Positions 33,482-43,853 of a DNA stretch of 56,125 nucleotides are shown one piece after another. The first letter of the stretch is position 1. Each line of letters begins with the position of its first letter. Location: the NCBI GenBank assembly GCA_001805645.1, contig MHGQ01000014.1, forward strand, positions 49,325 through 105,449. Reading direction: 5' to 3'. The translations under genes were made by a program, and so were the position numbers. The notes under the pieces are model-generated. The model was given only the letters and a program-made list of their open reading frames with translations, made no database searches and was not told where the DNA came from. The stretch comes from Omnitrophica WOR_2 bacterium RIFCSPHIGHO2_02_FULL_50_17. Its GTDB lineage: Bacteria > Omnitrophota > Gorgyraeia > Zapsychrales > Zapsychraceae.

Positions 33482-35464
33482 TTAGAAAGGCTGATCCCCC
33501 TTGAAAATGGCATCCAGGATGCCGTTAATGACGGCTTCCTCTGGCCGGACGTCCTTTTCCTGGGAATCTGAAGACGGTTGTCCGGACTCCTGTATCTGAG
33601 AGGGCTCCCCTTGGGCATCGGCATTGGAGGACTCTTCTTCGATATCAAGGGCGCGAAAGATAACCTTTTTCAGCTCTTCCCTGCCTTTACTGCGGATCAC
33701 TTGCCTGCCGACATCCCCCACATCCGGATAAATCCGCAGATCCCTGAACCTGCCCTGATAAGGCATAAGGGGAATATGAATCCGATTGTCCTCGTCCTGG
33801 AGGTACGCAAACTCCTCTACGGCCGTTACCATACCGGCAGATAAATCTTCAAGGATATAGAAATCGGCCTTGAGGACCAGATTCTGAGCGAAATCCATCT
33901 GGCCGTTTGCCGTCATCAGAAATCCATCCGCGCCGAATGCCGCTTTAGGAACAAAAATGGTGTCGTCCTGCATTTTTACCGACAATTCAACCAAATCCAA
34001 AGTCGTCTCTTCTTTTTTCAGGATATCCTTATACCTCTCCGGCAGGTCCGCCTCTATCTGAGACGCCAGATGAGGGATAAAGGATATTTTATCAAGGACA
34101 AACCTCAATAAATTAACATTGCTGAATTTGCCCTCCCGGACCTCAAACGCGCCTTCCCCTTTCCAAGATGCCGTTAGAGATACCGAATCTTCCGGCTCCT
34201 GCCCCTGCCCTTCCCCGCTGAAATCACCGAGGAGCTTCCCTGCCAATATCACCGGCCCGGCCCCCTCCTCCAGCACCGGCATGACCCGGGAAGGAATCAA
34301 CTCCGCCAGTTGAATGTCTTCGATATGAAGATCATAAAAAAATGCCCGTTCTCTTAAATAATCCTCCACACGCCCCTGGCCGGCCACTTTCCCGGCGCCA
34401 TAAAAAAAAGACAGCGTTTTTATATCCAAATCTGATTCCGTCATCTGAAAGGCAACCTGGATGCCTTCAAAAGGTTTTTGCAGCATCTCGACCTTGACTT
34501 TGCCGTCCGTTAACTGCCCCTCGGCGGACAAGTCCAAAAGACCGGTGGGGCCGGCCTTCAACTGAGGAACGGTGACCTGCAATTTCCCCTCCGGATTCCC
34601 TTCCAGCCTTAAGTTTCCCCTCAGGAGGGCATAAAAAGGCGCCTTTCTTATCTGCAGGCGCGCTAAATCCGTCTCGACTTTAAAATCACTCATATGAACC
34701 TGCTGATTATCCAAATCAAGGAATAAATTGCCGCGGCCCCGGATATTGGCCTGATCGGCCCAAACGGAACAGTTGAATCGAAACGCCGACGGTCTCTTCA
34801 AAGACAAATCCGTGATTTGAAAATCAATTCCCTCGACGGGGATAACCCAGGGCGGGTCATATCCTTGGTCCGTAAAAGTCAAGGAACCGTCCTCAATACG
34901 AAACGCTTGAATAAAAAACTCTAAAGGCGCATCTCGCCCGCCCTCCTCTTCCGCCTGAGCCGCATAAACTACGGAGGAAAAAGGGAGATGGAGCCCCACG
35001 GGCATATCCGCCGTACCTTTGGGTTCCGCCCGCGGGGCAGGACTTTTACCGGAAGGCATGGATAATTCCGGCAGATTGATTTTCCCTTCGGCGGTGCGGA
35101 TCAGCTGAAGAGCGGGGCTGCGAATCTCAGCCCGAGAAATATGAATCTTCTTTCTAATAAGAAAATCAAAGATGTTCACATCCAGATAAACAGAGGCGGC
35201 CGTCAAAAAAGGACCTGCGGAGAATGCCGGGTCATCTAAAATGGATACCCCCTGCACATTGAGGATAATGCCTTTATCGGCCGCAATGCCAAGCTGAAGT
35301 CCTTGAATCCGCACCTCCCGTCCCAGCGCGGAGCCTATGTACCGGGCAAGATAAGCACGATACTGATCGATATTATACGTCTTTAAAAAAACGAATGCGG
35401 CTGTTCCCAAAAGGAGAATGAAAACAAAAAAAACAAGAATGACAATCTTGACGGTTTTCTTCAT
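33482..35464 (-). CDS. AsmA-family protein
   Basis: N-terminal [50 protein letters not shown]. 660 aa, beta-rich. Confidence 0.75.
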
Positions 35465-37692
35465 CGGAGTTTGTCTAAAAGCTCCTCAAATTTTTTAATA
35501 TCCGTAAGGGGGAGTTTGCAGGCATGATTTTCGCAGACATAGGCCGTCACCTGCCCCTCCCGGGGGATCTGATCCTTGATAAAAGGGGCCATCGCGACAA
35601 TCTGATTTTTTTCTTTTGCTCCCGTCTCGTGAAGCATGATAACCGCGCGGGGAAGAAAACGAGCGGAGACCGCATCCCTCATGGCCTGAACCCGCTCATC
35701 GCTGCGGAGAGCGGCAATGACGATTTCCTGCGAAGGCCCCTGCGCAAAATCAAAGGCAATCAGCACCTGCGCGTAAGAGCCCGGATTACGCTCAATGGCG
35801 GCGGCAAAGGCTTGAAAAAAACTTTTAAACTTCTCCTCAAGGCCTTTATCCAGCGTTATATGATAAAGCCTCGCCAAATCAAGCGCCGCCACTCCATTGC
35901 CCGAGGCCACAGCCCCGTCATAAACGATTTTCGGCCGGAACAAAAGTTTCTCGGCATCATCGGCCGTAAAATAAAAACCTCCGTCTGTCTCGTCCCAAAA
36001 CAAATGGATCATCTCTTCGGTCAAACGTCGGGCCTGCTTAAGATACACAGCCGAAAACGTGGCCTCATACACATCCAGCAGCCCTTGAATAAAAAAAGCG
36101 TAATCTTCAATTGTTCCCACCCCCCCCGCTTCCCCCTGCCTGTAACGATGCCGTAGACGTCCCTTTTCATCGACAAAGCGTTTAAGAATAAAATCAGCCG
36201 CCCCTTGCGCCGCCTCTTGATAACGGGGCTCATGGAGCACACGCGATCCAAAGGCCAGAGAGGAAATCATAAGTCCGTTCCAGTCAACAAGGATTTTGTC
36301 GTCCAGAAAGGGTCGGGGTCTTCCCTGCCGGTATCGAAACAGCTTCTCCCGGGAGCGTCTTAAGACGGCCTCCACATCGGAAAGGGACTCTTGAAAATAC
36401 GCGGCGGTCTCCTGCAAATCTTTTTCCGTATAAAGAATGTTCTTCCCTTGGAATTCCCCATAGGGATCCGTTTCGGCATTGCCGTCGGGCTTCACGCCAA
36501 AGTAATAATTAAAAATTTCAGCCTCTCTCGCATCCAAGATGCGGACGATTTCCGCCTCTTGCCACAGATAAAATGCCCCTTCCTTCTTCTGAGAAGACTG
36601 AGCAGGATCGAGACTGTCCGCATCTTCAGCGGAATAAAATCCACCGTCCGGAGACTGCATATCCCGTAAAACATAATCTAGAATCTCGCGGGCGATGCGG
36701 GCATAGAGCTCTTTTTTCGTTACCTGATAGGCTTCCAGATATGCCCGGGAGAGCGCGGCCTGGTCATAAAGCATTTTTTCGAAATGAGGGATCCGCCACC
36801 TCCGGTCGGTCGCATACCGGTGAAATCCCCCGCCCAGATGATCGTAGAGGCCGCCTGCGGCCATTTGCTCGAGAGTATGCTCCACCATGGCGAGGGCCTC
36901 TGTGCTGCCATACCTTTGCCCATACCGCAGCAAAAAAGACAGATGATGTCCAGATGGAAACTTGGGGGCCGTCCCAAACCCGCCAAAATGAGAATCATAA
37001 GACATGTTCAATGCGCCAAAACCAGCCTTAAGGACGTCGTCTTTCAATTCCCCTCCCTGAGGTTGTCGGGACGCCTCCTGCCGCAGCACATCCGCTATCG
37101 AATCCCCGGACTGGGCAATCCGGCTGCGCTCGTTCTGCCAGGCATCGTAGACACTGCGCAATATATCCATGAGTCCCGGTGAGCCTCCTTGCGCGTAAAG
37201 AGGAAAATACGTTCCGCCGAAAAACGGTTTGCCCTCCGGCGTCAAAAATACCGTCAGAGGCCATCCGCCCTGGCCTGTCATGGCCATAACCGCCGTCATA
37301 TAGATGTGATCAATATCCGGCCGCTCCTCCCGGTCGACTTTAATAGGGACAAAATAATTATTGATGATTTGAGCCGCTTCCTGATTTTCGAAAGACTCGT
37401 GCTCCATGACATGACACCAATGACAGGTGGAATATCCGACAGACAAAAAGATCGGTTTATCTTCGGCTTTGGCCTTTTCAAAGGCCTCCTTGCCCCATGG
37501 ATACCAGTCCACCGGATTATCGGCATGCTGCAGGAGGTAGGGACTTTTTTCACGGCTCAAACGATTCTGGAACTCGGACCGGGGAGGCATCAGCGGGCCT
37601 TTCGTTTCCTGGTCTTGAGCAAAAAGCGGAAGACAAAAAATAATAAAAAAAAATATATATAAGGATAGATAATATCGCAGAGGACAACTCAC
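35461..37692 (-). CDS. thioredoxin-domain protein DUF255 (YyaL/SSP411 family) with signal peptide
   Basis: [60 protein letters not shown]. Hydrophobic N-terminus [20 protein letters not shown]. Confidence 0.94.
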
Positions 37693-38045
37693 GGGATAAT
37701 CAATGTCTCTTCTTTATACCCGGCCTCGCTGCAGACGGCCTTAACACGGATGACATCGCCGGAGGAGGCCTCCATGGGGACATCCTGAACAAGAGTGGTC
37801 GATGTTGTCTGTTTGGCATAAGGAAAATTTTCTATCGGCGCATCATTCTTGTAAACATAAAGCCTGCGGATATGATGCCCCTTTTGATCATGCGTCACAT
37901 GCCCGATCTCGGCATGAAGGACTTTTGTCTGGGAATCGTATTGAAGCTCAATAGTCGCCGGGGGATGCCCCCATGCCAGTCGGCCCGACGGCAAAATCAG
38001 GGCCAAGACAATAAACACCCTCAACCGATCAGGGCATCGGAACAT
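37689..38045 (-). CDS. small secreted beta-sandwich (Ig/desulfoferrodoxin-like) protein
   Basis: Signal peptide, then [42 protein letters not shown]. Fold assignment is a guess. Confidence 0.6.
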
Positions 38046-38047
38046 AG

Positions 38048-41000
38048 CTATTTTCCTGTCTCAATGGTATCCAGGGTCTGGGCCATAATATCTGAACGTG
38101 CAGGAGGCGTCTTTGCATTCGACGCCCATGGCGCCGACGGGGACCGTCGAGATCCCATCGCCGTCTTCCGACGAATCTCGGCAAGATAACTTTCCGTGCG
38201 TTCATAACCGGGACGCAAGCCGTTAATCTCTACGAATAACTCCCATGCCTCTTCGTAAGACCCCTCCTTATATAATTTAACGGCTTTTTTATATGTTTGC
38301 TTGAGTTGAGCCTGGATCGTCTTTTGGATCTCCCGCCGCTTTGCCCGCAATTCTTCCTGCGGACTAAAAAAAGATTGTAAAGGTTTGGGTTGGGGTTGAG
38401 AAGCCTGCCCCCTGGCGGACTCAACGTGTGCCGGTTTTTTCCGCTGTTCATCTCGTTTTTCAACAGGAGCCTCTGCTTTCTCGTCGTCCTTTTTCATTAC
38501 TGACTTTTCAATGCGCCCGGGGCGTTTTGGTCTGCCCAGCTTCTCCTTCATGGACTGCCGCTTTTCTTGGGCCAGCCTCTGGTCAATCTTCTGCAGATAG
38601 TCCTTTGTTGTCTTGTAGCCCGGGATTAACCTGTCCACCTCAATCCATTTCTCCTGTGCCTGAGCCAACTGATTGGCCTCATAAAATCGCAAGGCCTGCT
38701 GAAAGAGCTCCTCGGCTTTTAAACGGAACTGTCGATCAACCCTGTCATCCGTTATAGGGACACGGGCATCCCCTTGGCCAGAATCTTTTTTAGGCTTCCC
38801 TGCCTGTTGTGCGATATCTTCATCGATACGGATCAAATAATTGCGCGTAGCCTTATATCCCGGCAAAAGCGCCTCAACCTCAATAAATTTTTGTTTTGCC
38901 CCCTCGAGATCCAGAGACGTATATCGTCTCGTAGCCTCCGCATATTTCGCCTTCGCTTCTTTTTGCAGACGATGACGGCGATCTTCTTCTTTCTTTTGGA
39001 TGAACACTCGATCCTCCTCGTCCATGCCTTGAACCAGCGCCTCCGACCGGGTAGAGGATAGTTTCTCCTTGGGGGGGGACAACTGCTCCTGGCGCTTCCA
39101 GGCTAATTTTTCTTTCCTCACCTGCCGCGCAAAATCATCCTGCTCCTTCTCAAACTCATGCGTATACTGTTTTCGTATCTCCTCGTTGATCCGCCCTACA
39201 TATCCATCCGTCGATTTATAATGCGGATAGGATTGTTTGATCTTTAAGAATTTCTCCCTCGCCTCAGGATAATATTTATGCTTAAAAAGCAATATCCCCT
39301 CCCTATAAAACGAAGCCGCATCTTTAAAGGAGGCGATGCGCCCGGGGGTCTCTAATCTCTTTGTCTGATCCCTCCGAGAAGGCTGCCGTTCGGTCTGCCT
39401 GCGCTCATTTTTCTCTCGCTTGTATTCTTCCTTTTCAATCACAGAGGCGATATGCGCCAAATATTTCTCCGTCGATCTGTAACCCGGGTAAATCTGCTGA
39501 ATCTCCTGAAAACGCCCTTCAGCCATTTCCAAGAGATGCCCCTTGTAATAGGTTTGAGCCTCTTGATACAGCGAAGCAACGTATTTTTCCAGCCGCGCCT
39601 TTCGATCCTGCTTGATCCGTTCCAGCGTTTCTTTTAATTTGGCCTTTCCTTGCTGGCGGACAACAGCTCTCTGCTTCTCTTCCCTCCCTTGAGAAAGTCT
39701 CTTTTCTTTTAACGGACGCTCATATTCCCGTTTTTGCCGCGCCTTCTGATATTCCTCCTCATTTTTGATATCCACATTGATACGCGCCAGGAATTTATCT
39801 GTGGATTTATAACCCGGCACGGCGTCCGCAATTTTCTTGAAAATTTGTTTGGCCCTTCTAAAATCCCTCTTTTGATAAAAATCCCTCGCCTCATCGTAAA
39901 GCCCCTGTGTCTCAGTCTGAAGCGCCTGCAAGCGTTGCTGCTTTTCATCATGCTCTTGTCTGGTTTCCTTAAAACGAGTTGAGGCCATCTGGCGGTGTTC
40001 CTTCTTAAGACGTCGGCGCTCTTCGCGGGCGATGTCCTCGGCGGTCCGCTCCAGGAATTTTGCCGTCGACCTGTACCCCGAAAGAATCTTCTCGACTTCC
40101 TGAAAATAAAAGCGGGCCTTTTCATAGTCCCCCTTCTCGTAGGACGCCCGTCCCTTCTGATAAATAGTCTCGGCCTCTTCTTTCAAACGGTCCAGATTAA
40201 GCCTTTCGCTTCCTTCAACAGTTTTATGCCATTCCTCCTGTTGTTTTTTACTGGCCAGGGCCTCGGCTTGAAGCCTCTCTTCAAGAGAACGGCGTTCTTC
40301 CTTCTTGATATCCCCTTCGATACGCTCCAGATACTGATTTGTCAACTTGTAATCTGGATAAATGAATGCCACATCTTCAAAACTCGCCTTGGCCTGCTCG
40401 AATTGCCGCGCCTGATACTCCTCAAAAGCCCTTTGGTAAACCGGATCGGCCTGCGCCTGGAGGTCTTCTATGCGCCTTTTCTCGCTTTCTTCAACGGATT
40501 GCCGAAACTGCGCCTCCTCTTCCTGAGGCTCGAATGCCTCCTTTTCAGGCTGACTTTGCGCGAGATCCTCATCCAATTTTTGTTTTTCGCTCCGGCTATC
40601 TTCCTCCAGCATCAGATCGTTGATGATGGATAAATAATTCTCCGTATCCTTATATCCGGCAGAGGCCGCCTTCACCCGCAGGAAGGCCTCCTGGGCCTGC
40701 GTATATTTTTTCTCTTCAAAGAAAGACAGACCGGATTGATACGCCTGTTCAACGCTATCTTCCCCTTTAACGACCACAATCTCTTTCTCTTCAGATGCAG
40801 CACCTCTCAACTGCTCTGAACGCTCAATGATCCCGATAGCCTTCTGCCATAATTTCTGGGCCTCGGTGTAGTTCCCCTCCTCAAAAAGACGAATCGCTTC
40901 CCGATTATAAGCCTCTGCCTTCTCGATCAGCTTATCCCAGGGGACGGTCAGATCCTCGGCGCGCTCCGGCAGAGGCTTCATCTGTTTCTTTTCTTGGGAA

Positions 41001-41107
41001 GGAATCCCTGAATCATCCTCCAATGAGATTTGAGCAAATGCGGGGACAAAAAACAGTAACGCGACAAGGAACGTCTCAAAAAATATCCTGTAAAACTTCA
41101 TTTTCAT
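38048..41107 (-). CDS. 1019-aa secreted TPR protein with about ten PGYKxTxxYL-type repeats
   Basis: Signal peptide FFETFLVALLFFVPAFAQ; recurring blocks such as LYDEARDFYQKRDFRRAKQIFKKIADAVPGYKSTDKFLARINVDI. Confidence 0.85.
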   Translation of the reverse strand: MKMKFYRIFFETFLVALLFFVPAFAQISLEDDSGIPSQEKKQMKPLPERAEDLTVPWDKLIEKAEAYNREAIRLFEEGNYTEAQKLWQKAIGIIERSEQLRGAASEEKEIVVVKGEDSVEQAYQSGLSFFEEKKYTQAQEAFLRVKAASAGYKDTENYLSIINDLMLEEDSRSEKQKLDEDLAQSQPEKEAFEPQEEEAQFRQSVEESEKRRIEDLQAQADPVYQRAFEEYQARQFEQAKASFEDVAFIYPDYKLTNQYLERIEGDIKKEERRSLEERLQAEALASKKQQEEWHKTVEGSERLNLDRLKEEAETIYQKGRASYEKGDYEKARFYFQEVEKILSGYRSTAKFLERTAEDIAREERRRLKKEHRQMASTRFKETRQEHDEKQQRLQALQTETQGLYDEARDFYQKRDFRRAKQIFKKIADAVPGYKSTDKFLARINVDIKNEEEYQKARQKREYERPLKEKRLSQGREEKQRAVVRQQGKAKLKETLERIKQDRKARLEKYVASLYQEAQTYYKGHLLEMAEGRFQEIQQIYPGYRSTEKYLAHIASVIEKEEYKREKNERRQTERQPSRRDQTKRLETPGRIASFKDAASFYREGILLFKHKYYPEAREKFLKIKQSYPHYKSTDGYVGRINEEIRKQYTHEFEKEQDDFARQVRKEKLAWKRQEQLSPPKEKLSSTRSEALVQGMDEEDRVFIQKKEEDRRHRLQKEAKAKYAEATRRYTSLDLEGAKQKFIEVEALLPGYKATRNYLIRIDEDIAQQAGKPKKDSGQGDARVPITDDRVDRQFRLKAEELFQQALRFYEANQLAQAQEKWIEVDRLIPGYKTTKDYLQKIDQRLAQEKRQSMKEKLGRPKRPGRIEKSVMKKDDEKAEAPVEKRDEQRKKPAHVESARGQASQPQPKPLQSFFSPQEELRAKRREIQKTIQAQLKQTYKKAVKLYKEGSYEEAWELFVEINGLRPGYERTESYLAEIRRKTAMGSRRSPSAPWASNAKTPPARSDIMAQTLDTIETGK

Positions 41108-41258: not shown

Positions 41259-42767
41259 TTATTCTTCCAGGTCTTTTTCGGCGAAGACCTCGGCCGTAAA
41301 GATTTCGATTCTTGTTTTAGGATCCTTCCAGGCATCCGCAGGAAGACCGGCCTTTTGTACGCACAATTGAGACAAAAACTCTTCTTTCGTCCAGCCTGTC
41401 TCCGTTGCTACCTGAGGAAGGAAAAGCCCCTGATGCAAGGGCCCTTGGCTGATGATCACCCCATGTTTACCTAAGACAATCTCATCTGTATTCTTAATAA
41501 TGCGGGGCATGGAGAGCACCGAGACCTCCACATCAATCGCATCAAACTCCTGCGGCGTAACCGGCCGGAACCGGGGGTCTTTTGTTGCCGAAGAAATCGC
41601 CATATCCCGCACCGTCAAATACAAAGGGCCGCGTCCGAGGATATTGCCGATACAGCCGCGCAGATGGCCGGCTTTACGAATCGTGACAAACGCCCCCTCT
41701 TCTTTCATCAGACGCGGATCGGTTTCCTCAACAGCAAGGACATTTCCCTTTTGGACATACTCAGAGATCGTATCCTGCGCGATTTTTAAAAGGCGCTTCT
41801 TTTGTCCCGGCGTCAAAGATCCTTCAGACACTTTCTGTTCTTTCCCATAATTCTGTTGCAAAGATTCCCCCGATTCGTCGTCGTAAATAACAATCGAGGC
41901 ATACCCCACGACCCTGTTCTTATCACCTGTCACATCCCCCGAGTTGGCATGACGAAGGACATCAACATGCCTCAACCCTTTTTGTCTGGCGTAAAGTAAC
42001 GCGGCCGTCATCGGGACAACGCCGCACATCTCCATTGTGGTCCTTGACTGACAAGCCTTCCAGATCTCCTCTGCCTTCAACCCCTGCACGGCCTCCAGGG
42101 TGCGTCGATCCATCTGGCGCGCCTTGGCATCATCATGGTAATGAGACAAATCAGTGCTCACGACGATAAGGACGTCTTTGCGGCTGCCAATCACTTTATG
42201 CAAAACTGCCGCGAACTTTTCCAAAAGCTGAAAACCCGGCTGCCCCATAATCACGGGGACAATCTTGAAATTCTTGAAGGCCTTCTGAAGAAACGGAATC
42301 TCAACCTCTAAAGAATGTTCCTGGGCGAAGGCCTGCGGGGCATCATAAAATTTCTCATCCTCGGCCATCAGCTGCCGGGCCAACGGCGTATCCACTTCAA
42401 CGACGCCTAAAGGCGTCTGAAAACCTCCCTCTTCCCAAATGGAGATCCCGTCAAACCCGAAGTAATGACTGGGAGCCAGGATGATAACGGTTTTGTACGG
42501 ATTCTGGCTGGCGGCCTTAAATCCGTACGCCGCCACCCCTCCGGAATACATATAACCGGCATGGGGAGCGACCATGATATCAATGTGTTTATCGAAAGGG
42601 CGGACAGCGGCCTTTTGCATGAACTCGTCGATCTCAGCCGATAATCGTTGAGGATTGGCTGTATAAAACTGGCCGCTCACATTAGGCGACTTGATTCTTT
42701 GATCACCTAGAGCCATGGGAGAACCCCCTATGACCAAAAATGTTAACAGGATAAAAATGCGTCTCAT
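41259..42767 (-). CDS. AmmeMemoRadiSam B (MEMO) - A (AMMECR1) fusion with apparent signal peptide
   Basis: MRRIFILLTFLVIGGSPMALGDQ, APHAGYMYSGGVAAYGFKAA, ILAPSHYFGFDGIS, STDLSHYHDD; C-terminal AGHLRGCIGNILGRGPLY. Confidence 0.92.
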   Translation of the reverse strand: MRRIFILLTFLVIGGSPMALGDQRIKSPNVSGQFYTANPQRLSAEIDEFMQKAAVRPFDKHIDIMVAPHAGYMYSGGVAAYGFKAASQNPYKTVIILAPSHYFGFDGISIWEEGGFQTPLGVVEVDTPLARQLMAEDEKFYDAPQAFAQEHSLEVEIPFLQKAFKNFKIVPVIMGQPGFQLLEKFAAVLHKVIGSRKDVLIVVSTDLSHYHDDAKARQMDRRTLEAVQGLKAEEIWKACQSRTTMEMCGVVPMTAALLYARQKGLRHVDVLRHANSGDVTGDKNRVVGYASIVIYDDESGESLQQNYGKEQKVSEGSLTPGQKKRLLKIAQDTISEYVQKGNVLAVEETDPRLMKEEGAFVTIRKAGHLRGCIGNILGRGPLYLTVRDMAISSATKDPRFRPVTPQEFDAIDVEVSVLSMPRIIKNTDEIVLGKHGVIISQGPLHQGLFLPQVATETGWTKEEFLSQLCVQKAGLPADAWKDPKTRIEIFTAEVFAEKDLEE

Positions 42768-43234
42768 GGCGCTTCATTTTTAAATAGATACTGATCCAAA
42801 CTGAAACGCTGCGTCTTTTCAATTTTATAATACATCAATCCTGTCAAAATGAAAAGTGCCGTATCAAATACGAGAACGCTGGGGAGCGGAAAGGACATCA
42901 GCCCCCCGAAACAGCCGCACTCCTCAATAGGCAGATGACGCAGGATGGCCTGGGCGACGGCTTCTAAGAACATGACAAGAAGAAACGCAAGACCCAGCAA
43001 ACTCCTATTCAACCAGAGACCGAGGACAAGAAAAATACCGATGAAAAATTCGCACCAGGGAAGGAGATGGGCTGCCATTTCTTCAAGCAGGGGGTTCAAA
43101 AACGCATAACTTTGAATAACATAAAGGAAATTCTGATGGGGACTTATGACCTTTTCAAAACCGGAGGTCATAAAAAGAAGACCTGTGAGGATTCTCAAGA
43201 AAGGATAAATGTTAATGCCCTGCCTCCTGCACAT
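42764..43234 (-). CDS. DoxX/MauE-like membrane protein
   Basis: PFLRILTGLLFMTSGFEKVISPHQNF, GLWLNRSLLGLAFLLVMFLEAVAQAILRHLPIEECGCFGG. ATG at 43234 preferred over the ORF-track start 43270. Confidence 0.78.
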   Translation of the reverse strand: MCRRQGINIYPFLRILTGLLFMTSGFEKVISPHQNFLYVIQSYAFLNPLLEEMAAHLLPWCEFFIGIFLVLGLWLNRSLLGLAFLLVMFLEAVAQAILRHLPIEECGCFGGLMSFPLPSVLVFDTALFILTGLMYYKIEKTQRFSLDQYLFKNEAP

Positions 43235-43853
43235 ATTTATTGAGTTCCGTTCCCAAAGAGGCTGCGCCAACCACCATCTTGCCGTTAATATAGTAGGTAG
43301 GCGTGCTCTTGATGCCTAAGGTATCTCCTTCTTGTCTGTCTTTCTGAATCGACTCTGTGACCGAGGTATCCTTAAGACATTGGCTTAATATCTCGAGGTT
43401 CATATCGACGTCCTGAGCTATCTGTTCAAAGGCCGGCGCGGCATGGGCAAGACGTTTCCAATTTGCCTGACGCTCGATCAGATAATCGTGAAATGGCCAG
43501 AACTTTCCCTGACGGCCGGCGCACTCGGCATACTGGGCAGACAAGAGGCCATATCGATGACTGCTCAAAGGAAAATATTTTAGTTCTAAATAAACCGTTG
43601 GAGGGTGTTCCGTCATAAACTTTTTAATATGGCGCGCGCCTTCCGCACAGGCCGGACATTCAAAGTCGATGAACTCGGTTATATGGACAGGGGCTTTCTT
43701 GTCCCCCTTAACCCTGGCCGAGATATTCGCCTGAACACTCCCTTTTACGAATGCCTTAAGCGATTTAACGCCGAGGACGACAGCCACACTCAAGACAACG
43801 ACGATGATCGTTATTTTAATCTTCGCTGATACCTGGGATCGTTTATCAGCCAT
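43212..43853 (-). CDS. membrane-anchored DsbA-like thioredoxin-fold oxidoreductase
   Basis: ITEFIDFECPACAEGARHIKKFM (CPAC), GIKSTPTYYINGKMVVG cis-Pro region. Confidence 0.9.
   Translation of the reverse strand: MADKRSQVSAKIKITIIVVVLSVAVVLGVKSLKAFVKGSVQANISARVKGDKKAPVHITEFIDFECPACAEGARHIKKFMTEHPPTVYLELKYFPLSSHRYGLLSAQYAECAGRQGKFWPFHDYLIERQANWKRLAHAAPAFEQIAQDVDMNLEILSQCLKDTSVTESIQKDRQEGDTLGIKSTPTYYINGKMVVGAASLGTELNKYVQEAGH

Follow-up and report, generated by a model that had tools for sequence, protein, structure and literature searches.

A putative extracytoplasmic version of the AmmeMemoRadiSam system in Omnitrophota

The AmmeMemoRadiSam system, composed of protein A (AMMECR1, TIGR04335), protein B (Memo, TIGR04336) and a radical SAM enzyme (TIGR04337), is conserved from archaea to humans, where it is represented by MEMO1 and AMMECR1, and its chemistry is unknown. 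A 2019 study by Burroughs reportedly deals with Memo-Ammecr1 systems; AmmeMemoRadiSam appears in no title or abstract of the open-access literature that we searched. Described Tat-exported Fe-S enzymes with a NosR-like membrane partner include the reductive dehalogenases with PceC, and hydrogenases provide an example of Tat hitchhiker pairs. Thiol-redox modules of the MauE/MauD and CcdA/DsbD types serve methylamine dehydrogenase and cytochrome c as clients. Human MEMO1, in which H49, H81 and C244 bind Fe or Cu (PMC11081632), is intracellular and, unlike the protein described below, has neither an AMMECR1 domain nor a signal.

The window, by which we mean the whole 56,125-nucleotide stretch of DNA analysed here, is part of contig C14 in a genome of 1.92 Mb that is 93% complete. 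It contains a three-gene operon (Table 1) that includes a gene for a fusion of Memo and AMMECR1. As in the described AmmeMemoRadiSam, the family models for all three components are met above cut-off in this genome, and the Memo metal ligands, the LRGCIG motif of AMMECR1 and the radical-SAM CxxxCxxC motif are kept. In contrast to it, Memo and AMMECR1 are fused behind a signal peptide, the radical SAM bears, or is accompanied by, Tat or Sec export signals, and thiol-redox and NosR-like partners are present. The radical SAM gene is unlinked to Memo-AMMECR1 in the window genome, and the usual cytoplasmic location is not met either, judging on sequence grounds only from the signal peptide of the fusion and the radical-SAM leaders of relatives. 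The best reading is a predicted extracytoplasmic version of this known yet unexplained system.

The earlier note, made from the letters of the window alone, had described three minus-strand ORFs overlapping in series, a DsbA-like protein with a membrane anchor and a CPAC motif, and a MauE-like protein with CGCFG. All of these features were confirmed, with a cis-Pro TPT besides in the DsbA-like protein. The ORF coordinates give an overlap of 23 nt, with the MauE ATG at 43234 lying inside the 3' end of the DsbA-like gene, and then the ATGA; a 4-nt overlap of the latter type is seen again at many loci of the window's order. This ATG is most likely the MauE start, and the longer TTG start at 43270 given by the ORF finder is less likely. 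The Pfam matches to Memo, AMMECR1, MauE and Thioredoxin_4 are all well over their cut-offs. For instance, the DsbA-like protein, whose N-terminal transmembrane segment has a positive N-flank, matches Thioredoxin_4 (3.7e-25) and DSBA (1.5e-12), and the product of the second gene matches MauE (PF07291, 2.2e-18, 67 bits against a cut-off of 27).

Table 1. Features of the operon (window positions) and of the radical-SAM gene cluster on contig C70 (positions in locus L116, or as stated)
Feature	Position	Strand	Remarks
DsbA-like membrane-anchored thioredoxin-fold protein	43212..43853	(-)	213 aa; CPAC, cis-Pro TPT
MauE/DoxX-type membrane protein	42764..43234	(-)	156 aa; CGCFG motif; MauE match
Memo-AMMECR1 fusion, AmmeMemoRadiSam proteins B and A	41259..42767	(-)	TIGR04336 and TIGR04335 matches
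Predicted Sec signal peptide of the fusion, MRRIFILLTFLVIGGSPMALG	42705..42767	(-)	cleavage after ALG; from sequence
Memo domain of the fusion	41889..42686	(-)	Pfam match; H69, H101, C248
AMMECR1 domain of the fusion	41283..41789	(-)	Pfam match; LRGCIG with C372
ATGA stop/start overlap of MauE and fusion genes	42764..42767	(-)	translational coupling
NosR-like flavo-ferredoxin membrane protein (FMN_bind, Fer4_5, Fer4)	L116 8366-9739		C70 cluster
68-aa membrane protein with a variant EAxYW linker at its end	L116 8179-8385		C70 cluster
Leaderless radical SAM	L116 7187-8179		C70 cluster
66-aa Tat protein ending KEAKHYTSGDNLAG	L116 6972-7172		C70 cluster, directly after radical SAM
Fused MFS/spermidine-synthase-like membrane protein	L116:4660-7002; also L092:3551-5791		beside radical SAM

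Residues 28-293 of the fusion correspond to Memo (Pfam, 6e-66) and residues 327-495 to AMMECR1 (Pfam, 4.5e-55), and the family models for proteins B and A are matched with 284 bits (7.7e-85, cut-off 26) and 177 bits (1.6e-52, cut-off 99), respectively. The leader, MRR-(IFILLTFLVIGG)-SPMALG followed by D at the cleavage point, combines a positively charged n-region with a hydrophobic core and an A-x-G site for cleavage, so that the Sec signal regarded earlier as plausible is a good one in the window protein, and leaders also stand before Memo in homologues. An AlphaFold2 model built with 30 homologues reached a pLDDT of 92, and its best solved matches in Foldseek were human MEMO1 (PDB 7kq8, 7l5c; PMC11081632) and archaeal AMMECR1 proteins, followed by LigB-type dioxygenases. 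H69 and H101 of the Memo domain are invariant in alignment A3 and C248 is kept in at least 90%; by motif position they are the counterparts of the three MEMO1 ligands, and metal binding itself is inferred. The cysteine of the AMMECR1 LRGCIG motif, C372, is likewise invariant. The single Memo domain and the single AMMECR1 domain of the window genome both lie within this putatively exported fusion.

Matches to the fusion were found in 254 of the 285 Omnitrophota genomes. N-termini were read at 80 fusion loci, among which L088, an example of the fragments, and L113, with a masked ORF, could not be judged. A hydrophobic, positively led signal precedes Memo in essentially all of the approximately 78 fusions read, and several leaders have ends that look lipobox-like by eye (L066, L067). 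DsbA and MauE accompany the fusion at 19 of the 80 loci, all from the window's own order, and one of the two stands beside it at four further loci, also of this order. All 22 DsbA-like proteins keep CxxC (CPxC save for one CYPC) and the cis-Pro TP[TS], and CGC[FY]G is kept in all MauE homologues. Since the arrangement is conserved among relatives to this extent, the operon is not a chance one; the DsbA/MauE partners are conserved across the order and not unique to the window genome.

Elsewhere in the class, the gene order radical SAM, fusion, CcdA-like (DsbD_2), RsmE and MtaB is common. In family f2 of the window's order, DsbA and MauE are absent beside the fusion and a CcdA-like gene adjoins the radical SAM gene (L185, L186), and such a gene neighbours either the fusion or the radical SAM gene at 27 of the 39 loci with a Sec-leader radical SAM. 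Because the CcdA-like carrier replaces the absent DsbA and MauE, a membrane thiol carrier recurs with the system while its type varies. This agrees with the MauE/MauD and CcdA/DsbD modules, in which MauE and a thioredoxin-like partner, or a CcdA-like carrier, stand beside an exported cysteine-containing protein; the neighbour here, in contrast to their known clients, is Memo-AMMECR1. The earlier suggestion of an exported Memo-AMMECR1 coupled to a thiol/disulfide pair is supported by the signal in homologues and by the operon kept across the order. Its extension to an envelope metal or redox role held only in part: conservation extends to the MEMO1 metal ligands and the thiol-redox partners, but an activity has not been shown.

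No radical SAM gene had been seen within the window, which is correct, and a search of the remaining genome found two TIGR04337 genes, one on contig C60 (635 bits) and one on contig C70 (379 bits), both over the cut-off of 220. Many other lineages of the class have the radical SAM gene adjacent to, overlapping or fused with the genes for proteins A and B. Altogether 240 of the 285 phylum genomes have the enzyme, and some genomes of the window's order are without a match. The C70 enzyme begins with MAKVVECQLC and is leaderless. Its AlphaFold2 model is a confident single domain (pLDDT 94.5), and, by sequence, the solved structures nearest to it are those of PFL-activating enzymes. In Candidatus Omnitrophota nDJH6bin5 (L233), the radical-SAM N-terminus and the gene spacing are the same as in L130 from the window's family. 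The C60 gene (L115:12061-13158) encodes a canonical leaderless AmmeMemoRadiSam radical SAM, though a cytoplasmic Memo or AMMECR1 is absent from the genome.

Altogether we read 92 distinct radical-SAM enzymes, 91 of which are phylum relatives of the C70 gene, and judged their leaders from motif, hydropathy and charge. CxxxCxxC followed by QN or NN is kept in 91 of the 92, and four enzymes tested against TIGR04337 scored 379-397 bits, all over the cut-off. Among the 91 phylum enzymes, 19, L097 and L157 among them, have a Tat-type leader with a twin-arginine n-region (for instance SRREFLK) and an h-region, 39 a Sec-type leader or anchor, and 33 none. Outside the window's clade, the leader is followed by the linker EAxYYxKLxxxxVQCxLCPRxC; leaderless paralogues from the same genomes start directly with MKEAxxYxKL (e.g. 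MKEALLYKKL). Sec-type leaders are more positively charged ahead of the hydrophobic stretch than behind it in 37 of 38 cases, with the reverse in none, which agrees with the positive-inside rule for an N-in/C-out orientation. A standard cytoplasmic set in close relatives, which according to the earlier note would have refuted its proposal, was not found, because the adjacent or fused radical SAM of the sister lineages itself carries an export leader.

The distribution of TatC follows leader type: it is present in 18 of 19 genomes with a Tat leader, 32 of 33 with leaderless enzymes and 7 of 39 with a Sec-type leader (Fisher p 2e-15, with kinship ignored and few independent events). Mapped on the enzyme tree, leaders switch between Sec and not-Sec approximately 4 times and TatC changes state 12 times, and the independent evidence for the association is small because the leader changes are so few. 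The tatC gene directly adjoins the enzyme gene in G220 (L160), is no more than about 1 kb away in G175 and lies within several kb in G027, G201, G260, G053 and G244. Two radical-SAM paralogues, of which only one bears a Tat leader and the other is leaderless, were observed in tandem at L287 (genome G205, contig C88); TatC was not found in this 95% complete genome despite the Tat leader.

In the window's order, the leader appears from the sequences to have been split off from the radical SAM. Just downstream of nearly all leaderless phylum enzymes with enough flank lies a small Tat protein, as in the C70 cluster; none is visible at L149 and L162, which are near contig ends, or at L165. Members of this family have 47-120 aa; their C-terminus ...EAKYY..xLAG is strictly conserved, its last residues being LAG (in rare cases LLG or MAG), with a divergent form in family f36, and the only model that matches them is TAT_signal, slightly under its cut-off. 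The small proteins share the EA.YY/EA.YW linker that joins leader to enzyme in fused relatives. Tat hitchhiking of the leaderless enzyme is the natural reading, in which binding is inferred from adjacency and the shared linker only. A role of the small proteins as radical-SAM peptide substrates is not excluded, although a split leader fits better because they were found only beside leaderless enzymes. The system resembles the PceC-type and hitchhiker systems in its Tat leader on an Fe-S enzyme, its NosR-like neighbour and its leader on a partner protein, and differs from them in that the enzyme is a radical SAM of the PflA-like AmmeMemoRadiSam family. The MFS/spermidine-synthase-like protein (NCBIfam MFS_SpdSyn, 57 bits, cut-off 40) is encoded beside the radical SAM at 53 of the 91 phylum loci.

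Two natural fusions bear on the location of the enzyme. At L186:2743-5064, in a genome that lacks TatC and belongs to family f2 of the window's order, a NosR-like FMN/ferredoxin protein and a radical SAM form one protein of 773 aa with seven membrane segments and K/R-rich cytoplasmic loops, and this predicted topology would place the radical-SAM domain outside. At L092, signal, radical SAM, Memo and AMMECR1 make up a single polypeptide of 849 residues, whose sole hydrophobic segment is N-terminal. Beyond the phylum, Tat-type leaders on the enzyme were found in a named genome collection in Stahlbacteria, Planctomycetota, Thermodesulfobacteriota, Latescibacterota, KSB1, Poribacteria, Acidobacteriota, Bacteroidales, Kiritimatiellae, Ignavibacteria and others, with Desulfobacterales lineages also among the carriers, often near Memo-AMMECR1 fusions that bear a signal and near a gene of the MFS/spermidine-synthase-like type. 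Sets of a leaderless radical SAM with a signal-less Memo-AMMECR1 also occur (L225, L230), and L227 is one of the exceptions to the overall pattern. Misassembly of single genomes was ruled out, as the same patterns occur in many genomes.

We regard it as fairly probable that the whole is an extracytoplasmic AmmeMemoRadiSam, radical SAM included. The signals of the fusions, the conservation of the operon, the enzyme leaders of relatives, the natural fusions and the co-occurrence with TatC can be read directly from the sequences; actual export, complex formation and a redox role are inferred. The Memo-AMMECR1 fusion would act in the periplasm together with a radical-SAM enzyme, encoded for the window genome by the C70 gene elsewhere in the genome, and DsbA/MauE, or CcdA, would set the redox state of Memo C248 at the metal site and of AMMECR1 C372. 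Relatives may export the radical SAM by a Tat leader, or by a Sec-type leader in lineages mostly without TatC. In the window's order, the folded enzyme would be exported along with the separate small Tat protein, a hitchhiking that is probable because the leader sits on that protein. Electrons may be supplied outward by the NosR-like protein, with its extracytoplasmic FMN domain, or by thiols, and the MFS/spermidine-synthase-like neighbour is, by position only, a candidate for supplying SAM or dealing with the product. For the wider proposal that many bacterial phyla carry out radical-SAM catalysis outside the cytoplasm, with an enzyme exported in folded form by Tat, on a fused leader or by hitchhiking, or by a Sec-type anchor where Tat has been lost, and with an exported Memo-AMMECR1 and NosR-like or thiol electrons, we see the chances as evenly balanced.

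Several points count against such a location. An extracytoplasmic enzyme would need SAM and a low-potential reductant outside, it is difficult to see how Sec would export a 4Fe-4S enzyme, the radical SAM of the window genome itself is leaderless, and the DsbA-MauE pair is limited to the window's order. We know of no non-cytoplasmic radical-SAM enzyme, which gives the proposal a low prior. A periplasmic, Tat-exported or hitchhiking radical SAM was not reported in the open-access literature searched, and an earlier mention is not excluded. All localisation claims made here derive from sequence, without experiment. An extracytoplasmic version would fix the compartment of the system, name its redox partners and point to lineages for testing; if the radical SAM does work outside the cytoplasm, SAM, a reductant and a 4Fe-4S cluster that stays intact must exist there, and envelope biochemistry would need reconsidering.

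Somewhat unlikely, in our estimate, is a division in the window's order between an exported fusion and a cytoplasmic C70 radical SAM, with the small proteins as separate partners, anchors or substrates. The missing leader of the C70 enzyme speaks for it, and the strict LAG tail of the small Tat proteins, absent from leader-fused enzymes, could suggest a function of their own. However, the small proteins have the same linker as the leader-enzyme junction of fused relatives, the leaderless enzymes with small Tat proteins occur in TatC-positive genomes (32 of 33), and two fused architectures (L186, L092) join a radical SAM to exported domains. The fusion might instead be a stand-alone exported Fe- or Cu-binding metalloprotein of the MEMO1 type, reduced by DsbA/MauE and independent of any radical SAM, as the kept metal ligands, the unlinked radical SAM genes of the window's order and the genomes there without a match would allow. 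We consider this quite improbable, given that many relatives have overlapping radical SAM and fusion genes, that L092 joins the two in one gene, and that they co-occur phylum-wide (fusion in 254, radical SAM in 240 of 285 genomes).

That DsbA and MauE are merely a general oxidative-folding pair sharing the operon is unlikely: the gene overlaps are conserved over 19 loci, and the CcdA-like carrier takes the pair's place in relatives, so some thiol partner recurs. Their restriction to the window's order and their missing or partial presence at L040, L043, L044, L047 and L048 fit this idea nonetheless. ORF starts were assigned mechanically and some 5' ends are over-extended, from which one could argue that the leaders are start-site artefacts and all the proteins cytoplasmic. 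This is scarcely credible, as the n/h/c layout, Tat motifs, lipoboxes and (-3,-1) residues recur over hundreds of divergent genomes and leaderless paralogues lack such features.

Other genes for exported proteins were observed in the window downstream of the fusion gene. Positions 35461-37692 encode a YyaL/DUF255 protein (Thioredox_DsbH domain) with a signal peptide and CHWC, another envelope thiol protein nearby, and a YyaL/DUF255 gene also follows the fusion in L046 and L050. It is overlapped by the gene for a 118-aa secreted protein (37689-38045) that had no Pfam or NCBIfam match and has a homologue in L050. Positions 38048-41107 encode a 1019-aa exported protein of repeated TPR-like units with charged linkers between them; several members of the family encode proteins of this type, whose length varies widely (394-1558 aa), downstream of the fusion gene.
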